Below, piece after piece: positions 4,807-22,610 of a stretch of DNA of 64,000 nt. Both the position numbers and the translations under genes were made by a program. Source of the DNA: an uncultured Candidatus Pelagibacter sp. (GTDB lineage: Bacteria > Pseudomonadota > Alphaproteobacteria > Pelagibacterales > Pelagibacteraceae); the NCBI RefSeq assembly GCF_943788075.1, contig NZ_CALSOW010000002.1:1-64000 (forward strand). The letters run 5' to 3'. Each line of letters opens with the position of its first letter. Within the stretch, counting starts at the first letter, position 1. The notes beneath the pieces were generated by a model. It had not been told where the DNA came from and ran no database searches. It was given only the letters and a program-made list of their open reading frames with translations.

Positions 4807-5820
4807 CCCTAATCTCACAACAGATTTAGCAGTTTCAGATATACATCCTTTTGCAGGATTAAATTTTAATCCCAATAATTCTTCAGCATAACTTGTGTCA
4901 GTTTGCATTGTGATCTCAAGGTCTGGAATCATTGTTTTTGCACTTGAGTCCAAGTAGCTAAATAATTTAACCATAAAATTTGGAAGATGTTTTTTTGGAA
5001 GTTTTTTTGCATATTCAGGCATTGCTTCAGCCATTATTTGAGAGAGTTCAATAAGTGTTTTTACTTCTTTACCAACAATTAATCTTCTTCCACCGACATT
5101 ATTATTACCAATACAAGCAACGTGAGCTTTTGCTACATCTTTGACATCAGAAATTAAAACTCCCCATTTAGGTGCTGCTGGAAATTTGCCTTTAAGAAAC
5201 TGTCTAACATATTCAATTGAAGTTCCTCCTTTTTTATCGAGTGCATCACCAAATACTCCACCAGGACAAATAGTAGTAAGTTTATTTTTTAATCCTTTGC
5301 TTTCCATTAATTCCCAAGCAAGTCTTTCAGCTTTTGTTTTTGATAAAAAGTAGTCAGTTACTCCCTTAGTCCAATTTTCATCTGTCCAATCATTTTCTCC
5401 AAACGTGTAAGGGTTGCTTCTGTTTGGTTTTCTAAACATTGCAACAATCGAAGAAGTTTTAATTATCTGTTCTACATTTGCATTAATACCAGCATTTAAA
5501 ACTCTCAAAGTTCCATCAACAGCAGGTGCTAATAAACTATCTCTATTATTTGAAACTTTGTAAGGGAAAGGGGAAGCGATGTGCATTACATATTTGCACC
5601 CTTGAGCTGCTTCATTCCATCCATCATCTTTTAAAAGATCTAATTCAACAAATGATAAATTATCGATTGGAGCGTGTTTACTTATCGTTTCTTTAGTTTG
5701 TTCAATTAAACTATCATTTCTAACAGTTCCTAAAACTTCATAGCCTGAATTTAATAATTCTATTGCAGTATGTTTTGCTATCCATCCACTTATTCCAGTT
5801 AATAATACTTTATTTGTCAT
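4798..5820 (-). CDS. NAD(P)-dependent epimerase/dihydroflavonol reductase-like (extended SDR)
   Basis: 340-aa extended SDR. The N-terminal cofactor motif is LLTGISGWIAKH, close to the TGxxGxxG pattern. MHIASPFP and TSSIVAMF follow, then YFLSK (catalytic Tyr-Lys) and TICPGGVFG. Architecture and length fit the DFR-like ketone/aldehyde reductases. It is transcribed away from the small protein and HxlR regulator genes, with two inverted repeats in the 180-bp spacer, so it is a plausible HxlR target involved in aldehyde or quinone detoxification. That role is inferred from context only. Confidence 0.8.
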   Translation of the reverse strand: MTNKVLLTGISGWIAKHTAIELLNSGYEVLGTVRNDSLIEQTKETISKHAPIDNLSFVELDLLKDDGWNEAAQGCKYVMHIASPFPYKVSNNRDSLLAPAVDGTLRVLNAGINANVEQIIKTSSIVAMFRKPNRSNPYTFGENDWTDENWTKGVTDYFLSKTKAERLAWELMESKGLKNKLTTICPGGVFGDALDKKGGTSIEYVRQFLKGKFPAAPKWGVLISDVKDVAKAHVACIGNNNVGGRRLIVGKEVKTLIELSQIMAEAMPEYAKKLPKKHLPNFMVKLFSYLDSSAKTMIPDLEITMQTDTSYAEELLGLKFNPAKGCISETAKSVVRLGLV

Positions 5821-17207: not shown

Positions 17208-19034
17208 GTGGAAAGAATAATTACTAAATCATTTGCTAGATTGATGGGTCGTGGAACCCATAGGGGCTTCATAACTTACGAAGAATTAAATAAATCACTA
17301 GGTAAAAGAAATCTATCTGATGAAAATTTATCACAGGCATTCATTCATATCTTAGATGAAGGTGTTGCATTAGTTGAAAAAAAATCTGATTTCAAAGTTT
17401 TAAGAAAAAAAGAAGGATCGTCTAAAGAAGAAGGTAAGACGATGGAGAAAAGTGATGATCCTATCAGAATGTATTTACGAGAAATGGGAGGTGTGGAGCT
17501 ACTTTCAAGAGAAGGTGAAATTGCAATTGCAAAAAGAATTGAAGCTGGGAAAGATGTAATGTTGATTGCGTTATCTCAAAGTCCAATGACTGCTCAACAG
17601 TTTTATGAGTGGAATGATCAATTACAGAAAGATGAAATTTTAGTAAGAGAAATTATTGATATTGACACTAATTATATGGAAGACGAGTCGACAGGACCTA
17701 GCGCAAAACAAAAAAATGCAGGCGAAACTGACAAAGATGAAAACTCTAGTGATGGTGATGATGACGATTTTAATCCAACACTTGCTGCAATGGAGACTGA
17801 AATTAAACCAAAAGTTTTAAAAACAGTTAATACACTAACTAAAGAATATACAAAATTAATAAAATACCAAAAAGAAAAACTAGATTGTGTTTTAAATTCT
17901 CAAAATTTTTCTCCTGCGAAAGAGAAAGGATATCAAAAAATTGTTGATGATATTTTAGAAAATATAAAATCACTTCAATTATCGCCTTCAGTTTTAGAAG
18001 AGTTAGTTCAAAAACACTATGGTGAAAATAAAAAAATTATATCTTTAGAAGGAAACCTTTTAAGATTAGCAATGGATCACAATATTCCAAGAAATGAATT
18101 TATAAAGTTTTATATTGGTAATGAAATAAACCCAAATCTAAAAAAGTTTTTAGATACTAATTCAATTTGGAAGCAATTTTTTGCAAAAAATAAGGAAGAA
18201 TTTAAAAATATTAGAGAAAGATTAATTGAGATTAGTCATAAATTAGGAATATCTGTAACAGATTTTAAAAAATTAGTTAGTAGAGTTCAAAAAGGTGAAA
18301 AAGAGTCAAGAATTGCTAAAAAAGAAATGGTTGAAGCTAATTTAAGATTAGTAATATCAATTGCTAAAAAATATACGAATAGAGGTCTTCAGTTTTTAGA
18401 TTTAATTCAAGAGGGTAATATTGGTTTGATGAAAGCTGTTGATAAATTTGAGTACAGAAGAGGATATAAGTTTTCTACGTATGCCACTTGGTGGATTAGA
18501 CAAGCTATTACAAGATCAATTGCTGATCAGGCTAGAACTATAAGAATTCCAGTTCATATGATTGAAACAATCAATAAGATTGTAAGAACCCAAAGATTAA
18601 TCTTAAGTGAGTTTGGAAGAGAAGCAACCCCTGAAGAATTAGCACAAAAACTTAGAATGCCACTTGATAAAGTTAGAAAAGTTTTAAAAATTTCAAAAGA
18701 ACCCGTCTCCCTTGAAAAACCAGTGGGTGATGAAGAGGATAGTAGTCTAGGAGATTTCATAGAAGATACAAAAGCGTTAGCACCACTTGAACAAGCTATT
18801 AAATCTAATCTTGGAGAAGCAACAACTAAAATTTTATCCACATTAACTCCAAGAGAAGAAAGAGTTTTGAGAATGAGATTTGGAGTTGGAATGAATACTG
18901 ATCACACTTTAGAGGAAGTTGGTCTTCAGTTCTCTGTAACTAGAGAAAGAATTAGACAAATTGAAGCAAAAGCTCTTAGAAAACTGAAACATCCTAGCAG
19001 ATCTAAACAGTTAAAAAGTTTCTTAGAAAGTTAA
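17208..19034 (+). CDS. rpoD: RNA polymerase primary sigma factor (sigma-70)
   Basis: 608-aa RpoD starting at GTG. Region 1.1 is at the N-terminus ([12 protein letters not shown]), followed by an acidic low-complexity stretch (about residues 165-190). Region 1.2 is [21 protein letters not shown], region 2 includes [20 protein letters not shown] and [17 protein letters not shown] (-10 recognition), and region 4 ends with [20 protein letters not shown] (-35 recognition). The large non-conserved insert between 1.2 and 2 is normal for proteobacterial RpoD. Last gene of its operon, followed by two tRNAs. Confidence 0.96.
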
Positions 19035-19041
19035 TCTTACT

Positions 19042-19116
19042 GGGCCGTTAGCTCAATAGTAGAGTACTGCATTGACATTGCAGGGGTAGTTGGAGCGTAA
19101 CCAACACGGCCCACCA
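19042..19116 (+). tRNA. tRNA-Val (GAC), atypical D and T loops
   Basis: The acceptor stem GGGCCGT/ACGGCCC pairs perfectly, with encoded CCA. The anticodon stem is CTGCA/TGCAG with loop TTGACAT, giving anticodon GAC. The T stem is GTTGG/CCAAC but its loop is AGCGTAA instead of the near-universal TTCRANN. The D loop is only AATAGTA, lacking the usual GG pair. T8 and A14 are kept. Either a functional tRNA with an altered elbow or a decaying copy. Confidence 0.8.
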
Positions 19117-19174: not shown

Positions 19175-19252
19175 TGGGCCTGTAGCTCAGTTGGTTAGAG
19201 CAGTACACTCATAATGTATTGGTCCCAGGTTCGAGTCCTGGCGGGCCCACCA
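19175..19252 (+). tRNA. tRNA with CAT anticodon (Ile2 or elongator Met)
   Basis: The acceptor GGGCCTG pairs with CGGGCCC (one T-G wobble), with encoded CCA. The D arm contains the normal GTTGGTTA, the anticodon loop CTCATAA gives CAT, and the T arm has the canonical TTCGAGT loop. The first pairs and the loop context resemble alphaproteobacterial tRNA-Ile2, whose C34 is modified to lysidine, but elongator Met is also possible. It is not an initiator, because it lacks the GGG/CCC anticodon-stem signature. Confidence 0.9.
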
Positions 19253-22070: not shown

Positions 22071-22427
22071 TTGCCAGATAAATGATTTATCGCTTTAAGA
22101 TATTAAAGAGGAAAGTCCGGGCTCCACAAGGATACAGTGCCAGATAATACCTGGCGGGGGTAACCCTAGGGATAGTGCCACAGAAAATAAACCGCCATAA
22201 CATGGCAAGGGTGAAAAGGTGTGGTAAGAGCACACCGGTTCTATTGGTAACAATGAACGCTGGAAAACCCCACTGGGAGCAAGACTAAGTAGAGATGACA
22301 TTGTTGCAAAACTAAAAGCCATCCTTGGCTAGTCATCAGGGTTAGTTGCTTGAGCTTAAGAGCGATCTTAAGCCTAGACAAATGATAGGTTTAAATGACA
22401 GAACCCGGCTTATAGTTTATCTGGCAA
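22071..22427 (+). ncRNA. rnpB: RNase P RNA (bacterial class A)
   Basis: Catalytic RNA that matures tRNA 5' ends. The terminal P1 helix is visible: the 12 bases at 22071-22082 are the exact reverse complement of 22416-22427. Universally conserved blocks are present: GAGGAAAGTCCGGGCTCC (P4 5' half region), ATAGTGCCACAGAAAATA, a GTGGTAAGAGCACACCGG-type segment and ACAGAACCCGGCTTATAG. It is markedly more GC-rich than its surroundings. Confidence 0.96.
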
Positions 22428-22610
22428 AAGTCCCTAAAGATAATTTTCAACATAATCAAATGTTCTTGTTTTGATTCATTATTGAGTCAGCTTTGTTCTT
22501 ATTTATTTTTTTTATCATTTGTAATCTGCCATATTAATTTGACCTTTATTATACGTTTGATATCAAAAAAAAATTACAAATAACTGTCAAAAATCAATAA
22601 TAATCAGTAT

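Follow-up and report, generated by a model that had tools for sequence, protein, structure and literature searches.

A probably functional tRNA-Val(GAC) with compensated A18/G55 elbow contacts in SAR11 bacteria

The G18-Psi55 and T54-A58 contacts are textbook near-invariants of tRNA. Neither occurs in a tRNA-Val(GAC) gene in the window analysed here, a stretch of 64,000 nucleotides from an uncultured Candidatus Pelagibacter sp. (contig NZ_CALSOW010000002.1), which raises the question of whether this gene is decaying or codes for a working tRNA in which the D and T loops meet through other bases. The gene is located on the plus strand at positions 19042-19116, including an encoded CCA end (19114-19116), and is called by both ARAGORN and Rfam RF00005, with a covariance score of 53.6 bits (E 1e-8) against a gathering score of 29, a check that had been proposed in the preliminary description of the locus. 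As that description held, the stems pair well: in the 7/4/5/5 cloverleaf every one of the 21 stem pairs is standard, a G10-U25 wobble included. The anticodon GAC (19074-19076; gene position 33), which reads GUC and GUU, provides the valine identity elements A35 and C36, and the discriminator A73 is likewise present by sequence. The D loop AATAGTA (19055-19061) comprises A14, A15 (19056), U16, A18 (19058), G19 (19059), U20 and A21, and at 7 nt it is one base shorter than in most canonical relatives. The T loop AGCGTAA (19094-19100) comprises A54, G55, C56, G57, U58, A59 and A60. In place of the canonical elbow pairs G18-U55 (Psi55) and U54-A58 the tRNA thus contains A18 with G55 and A54 with U58, while A48, the last base of the variable loop GGGTA (19084-19088), lies opposite A15 to give a purine-purine 15/48 combination. 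The exposed G19-C56 pair, a contact for partners such as the ribosome and RNase P, is unchanged, and both this pair and purine 57 (here G57) are kept in 28 of 28 distinct SAR11 tRNA-Val and tRNA-Phe sequences among the matches listed. The loop sequences and the residues at positions 18, 19, 54, 55, 56 and 58 had all been assigned correctly in the preliminary description.

An open reading frame coding for the sigma-70 type factor RpoD (17208-19034, plus strand) ends 7 nt upstream of the tRNA-Val(GAC) gene. At most loci in genus g1, including both that carry a canonical tRNA, rpoD directly adjoins the tRNA gene and thereby marks the orthologous locus. A tRNA(CAT) gene with the canonical T loop TTCGAGT (19176-19252, plus strand; ARAGORN, Rfam) is a conserved neighbour on the 3' side; the genome has three CAT tRNAs, and this one, as far as resemblance goes, looks closer to tRNA-Ile(CAU) than to the elongator tRNA-Met. 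The window also contains a bacterial class A RNase P RNA (22074-22428; 288 bits). In genome G051 a lone 56-nt stretch identical to the 3' portion of tRNA-Val(GAC) (C1:397210-397265; L323 ~5211-5266) occurs ~256 kb away from the intact gene and may be what is left of an attachment site; inspection of the neighbouring ORFs of more than 100 aa showed no evident integrase.

The case for decay begins with copy number and distribution. In this genome, which is 85% complete, the search for a second tRNA-Val(GAC) that had been suggested earlier yielded none besides the gene at 19042-19116, and only a canonical tRNA-Val(TAC) is also present. The latter might by itself suffice to read every valine codon, so that the GAC tRNA may be dispensable, and since 99 of the 147 genomes in the family sample have no significant match to the gene, it can probably be absent. 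The gene might then be a decaying pseudogene that has lost its TPsiC contacts, with tRNA-Val(TAC) doing the work. Against this, the 75 nt occur without a single substitution in 22 of 27 members of the genus in the sample, this genome counted. The other five comprise one with a one-base insertion in the D loop, one whose acceptor stem differs yet still pairs, two with a canonical form and one with no match to the gene. Comparison with SAR11 relatives, as had been proposed, thus did not produce TTCGA throughout, and the identity among the 22 genomes, together with the paired and covarying stems, rules out a sequencing error. The combination of A18/G55 and A54/U58 is also kept in the tRNA-Val of genera g3, g4, g10 and g12, where the acceptor, anticodon and T stems differ but still pair, so that the swapped elbow is conserved across five SAR11 genera; one g3 sequence combines A18/G55 with U54-A58. 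All 21 stem pairs are standard in each of 15 distinct sequences. Neither relaxed constraint nor broken stems were found, CCA is encoded, and the same swap occurs in the only tRNA-Phe found in the genome, which must be functional. The pseudogene reading is strongly disfavoured and must be regarded as very improbable, and the gene at 19042-19116 is instead, with high confidence from its sequence and conservation, predicted to encode a functional elongator tRNA-Val(GAC) with compensated alternative contacts between the D and T loops.

The two canonical congeners, G105 and G109, carry G18/G19 and the T loop TTCRATT at the orthologous rpoD-tRNA locus. Their acceptor stem and unusual D stem GCTC/GAGT, with the G10-U25 wobble, are common to the swapped form, and their variable loops are near-identical to it. 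These shared stems and variable loop argue for change in place, and the swapped and canonical elbows appear to be exchanged at a single locus, the swapped form being conserved and repeatedly gained and reverted. An alternative concerns only the origin of the swapped form, which would have arrived by replacement with a tRNA borne by a phage or other element, the resulting tRNA still working. A18/G55 tRNAs are common in IMG/VR viral contigs, among them a tRNA-Val(GAC) with AGCGTAA (L246), one identical variant gene is common to one g1 and two g12 genomes, and two g1 genomes have a quite different tRNA-Phe. The features that link the swapped gene to its canonical counterparts at the rpoD locus speak against replacement, as does the lack of a match to the tRNA-Val(GAC) gene in the phage collection, from which no donor phage emerged; this origin is considered unlikely. 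Three named phage isolates examined as relatives of A18/G55 tRNA-Gly also proved to have canonical T loops.

The swap in tRNA-Val(GAC) has a parallel in the same genome. Its single detected tRNA-Phe(GAA) (L017:1501-1575; G000:C1:373569-373640) has the D loop AGGAGTA and the T loop TGCGAAT, and therefore the same A18/G55 swap, with U54-A58 retained. Among the matches listed, tRNA-Phe is swapped in SAR11 genera g2, g4, g14 and part of g1 and is canonical elsewhere. When the search pattern placed no constraint on the D and T loops, the 28 distinct SAR11 tRNA-Val and tRNA-Phe sequences among the matches listed comprised 12 with A18-G55, 16 with G18-U55 and none with a mixed state (Fisher p 3e-8, the rows being related by descent). 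This joint change of A18 and G55, and the two congeners that are canonical at the orthologous locus, bear out the proposal that paired changes on both sides of the contact reflect compensation and not decay. G105 has a canonical tRNA-Val and a swapped tRNA-Phe, which implies that each gene switches on its own, and in G109 both are canonical; a genome-wide switch of all tRNAs is thereby ruled out. The tRNA-Thr(GGT) of the genome (L030; G000:C1:369384-369454) has the T loop GTCAGTA, with G54/G58 and U55 kept, and G54-G58 is also observed in a few unrelated tRNAs.

The occurrence of the swap in tRNA-Phe also bears on whether tRNA-Val(GAC) has a special role outside ribosomal decoding. Staphylococcus cell-wall tRNA-Gly species, which have such a role, have altered elbows too, and the GAC isoacceptor may be dispensable for decoding. 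However, the exposed G19-C56 elbow pair is kept, no candidate user gene came to notice, and with the swap found in tRNA-Phe here and in tRNAs for Gly, Thr, His, Met, Ala, Pro and other amino acids elsewhere, it is not bound to one amino acid. A special role is accordingly given very little credence, and an elongator function of tRNA-Val(GAC) is retained as the preferred reading.

Beyond the genus, no match to the A18/G55 swap was obtained in 385 alphaproteobacterial genomes, nor in 299 Pseudomonadota genomes beyond this one, both searches being confined to D stems GCTC or GYTC. A prokaryote-wide scan of one genome per species, using a pattern that left out the SAR11 genes, identified at least 118 loci with the A18/G55 pattern, and a scan of IMG/VR viral contigs at least 120; among the matches listed, an ARAGORN tRNA call carries the motif in 138 of the 198 loci examined. 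The swap occurs in tRNA-Gly(TCC) of Streptomyces and relatives, tRNA-Phe, tRNA-Thr and tRNA-His of Patescibacteria, tRNA-Thr of Elusimicrobia, tRNA-Thr and tRNA-Ala of DPANN archaea (Micrarchaeota, Nanoarchaeota), and in cyanobacterial tRNA-like genes. Uniqueness to this genome or to the alphaproteobacteria is thereby ruled out. Of the earlier statement that few bacterial tRNAs lack the TPsiC sequence, the rarity stands, but near-uniqueness does not, given the recurrence of A18/G55 in many phyla, in viral contigs and in the genome's own tRNA-Phe. Among 868 distinct tRNAs outside the search pattern, which come from the collected loci and are not independent samples, 97 have A18-G55 and 684 G18-U55, with only four A18-U55 and two G18-G55. 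Mixed states are clearly near-absent, and by their sequences positions 18 and 55 appear to change together rather than singly, making A18/G55 a rare but recurrent alternative elbow class. A54-U58 is seen with either 18/55 state, and R15/A48 is found in 17 of 40 A54-U58 tRNAs versus 80 of 873 with U54-A58. Dense tRNA arrays with many A18/G55 members occur on MAG contigs of Verrucomicrobia and Actinomycetes (L080, L083, L086, L097), which suggests that they are tRNA arrays of mobile elements. The Steinberg group reportedly carried out D/T-loop selections with suppressor tRNAs; no published description of an A18/G55 tRNA class was found in the open literature. Nor did a term search of the 2014 paper on SAR11 tRNA signatures (PMC3937112) bring up a passage on these loops. 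The class is thus recurrent, yet undescribed in the open literature searched.

Why such elbows should arise in SAR11 may be linked to the enzymes that modify the T loop. Profile searches for the Psi55 synthase TruB (PF01509) located it only in SAR11 genera g5, g7, g9 and g12 (28 genomes), and it was absent from all other SAR11 genera sampled, complete genomes of this genus included; among sampled alphaproteobacterial genomes it was found in 184 of 192. Where truB is present the gene order is infB-rbfA-truB-rpsO-pnp, while ten genomes from six genera, this one among them (G000:C1 ~288474, L359; series L356-L365), have rpsO directly after rbfA, with truB cleanly missing. The rpoD tree separates the TruB-positive from the TruB-less genera with full support, a split that is consistent with a single truB loss in SAR11. 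TrmA was not found in the eight SAR11 genomes tested, nor was TrmFO, for which only partial matches below the cut-off were obtained. U54 and U55 of the T loops are thus probably unmodified cell-wide in the TruB-less clade. The restriction of swapped tRNA-Phe to TruB-less genera, among the matches listed, fits a link with TruB. Genus g12 provides a counterexample, having both TruB and a swapped tRNA-Val, which rules out TruB loss as a strict cause, and Streptomyces likewise has TruB. As TruB acts on a T arm of sequence GUUYRANYC (PMC7912444), swapped tRNAs could not be its substrates in any case. That truB loss eased the A18/G55 swaps is only suggestive, the independent events being too few for a test. 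A fuller scenario, in which early TruB loss in the main SAR11 clade without a T54 methyltransferase removed selection on U54/U55 and led repeatedly to modification-free elbows (A18-G55 with A54-U58) in tRNA-Val(GAC), tRNA-Phe and perhaps tRNA-Thr(GGT), is offered tentatively, as a possibility that falls short of being probable. If this is true, SAR11 would offer a test in nature of what makes TPsiC nearly universal elsewhere.

In the canonical elbow, residue 18 is inserted between residues 57 and 58 and bonded to residue 55, 19-56 forms a Watson-Crick pair, and the T loop is closed by 54-58 (PMC4810234, PMC7912444). The joint replacement of 18 and 55 within kept surroundings suggests that A18 acts as G18 does, intercalating between 57 and 58 and hydrogen-bonded to G55. 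A54-U58, a tertiary pair in mirrored form, would close the T loop, and the L-shape would be maintained without Psi55, T54 or Gm18. With truB deleted and neither trmA nor trmFO found, U at 54 and 55 has no modification advantage to lose; this probably eased the switch without being strictly required, and A18-G55 may be less costly in the TruB-less clade than elsewhere.

The conservation of A18/G55 and its repeated gain and reversion in one of the most abundant bacterial groups of the ocean suggest that selection keeps the contact rather than the letters, and the rpoD locus offers natural pairs of canonical and swapped alleles for testing that contact. The absence of truB from most SAR11 genera is a by-product of farther reach than the elbow swap, as its loss from a free-living, abundant clade in which neither trmA nor trmFO was found would leave T loops largely unmodified at positions 54 and 55. 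Room for the A18/G55 class should be made in annotation software and in searches by T-loop consensus.

The SAR11 tRNA-Val(GAC) shares with its canonical bacterial counterpart (RF00005) the 7/4/5/5 cloverleaf, U8, A14, U33, G19-C56, purine 57, G53-C61, A73, an encoded CCA and the valine anticodon. It differs in having A18/G55 for G18-Psi55, A54/U58 for T54-A58, A15/A48 for R15/Y48 and a 7-nt D loop, and Gm18, T54 and Psi55 cannot be formed in it. A54 is also found in eukaryotic initiator tRNA-Met, with A54-A58, and in eukaryotic tRNA-Ala(AGC), where A54/A58 is joined by R15/A48; the paper on these tRNAs reports neither R15/A48 nor A54/A58 in bacteria (PMC7566577). The enrichment of R15/A48 in A54-U58 tRNAs echoes the joint occurrence of R15/A48 and A54/A58 in eukaryotic tRNA-Ala (PMC7566577), a tie between A54 and a purine-purine 15/48 combination that the SAR11 tRNA shares; the eukaryotic tRNAs, however, retain G18-U55 and have A58, whereas the bacterial tRNA-Val has A18/G55 and U58. 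The tRNA-Pyl and mitochondrial tRNAs that do not have G18G19/TPsiC show aberrant arm lengths or a lost D/T contact (PMC7609411), whereas the SAR11 tRNA-Val, equally without TPsiC, has standard arms and keeps G19-C56. Further parallels are the Streptomyces tRNA-Gly(TCC), the patescibacterial tRNA-Phe, tRNA-His and tRNA-Thr, the Elusimicrobia tRNA-Thr and the viral-contig tRNAs, which have the same 18/55 swap in independent tRNA species and taxa; most A18/G55 tRNAs outside SAR11 keep U54-A58, and several also have A54-U58 with the T loop AGCGTWA.
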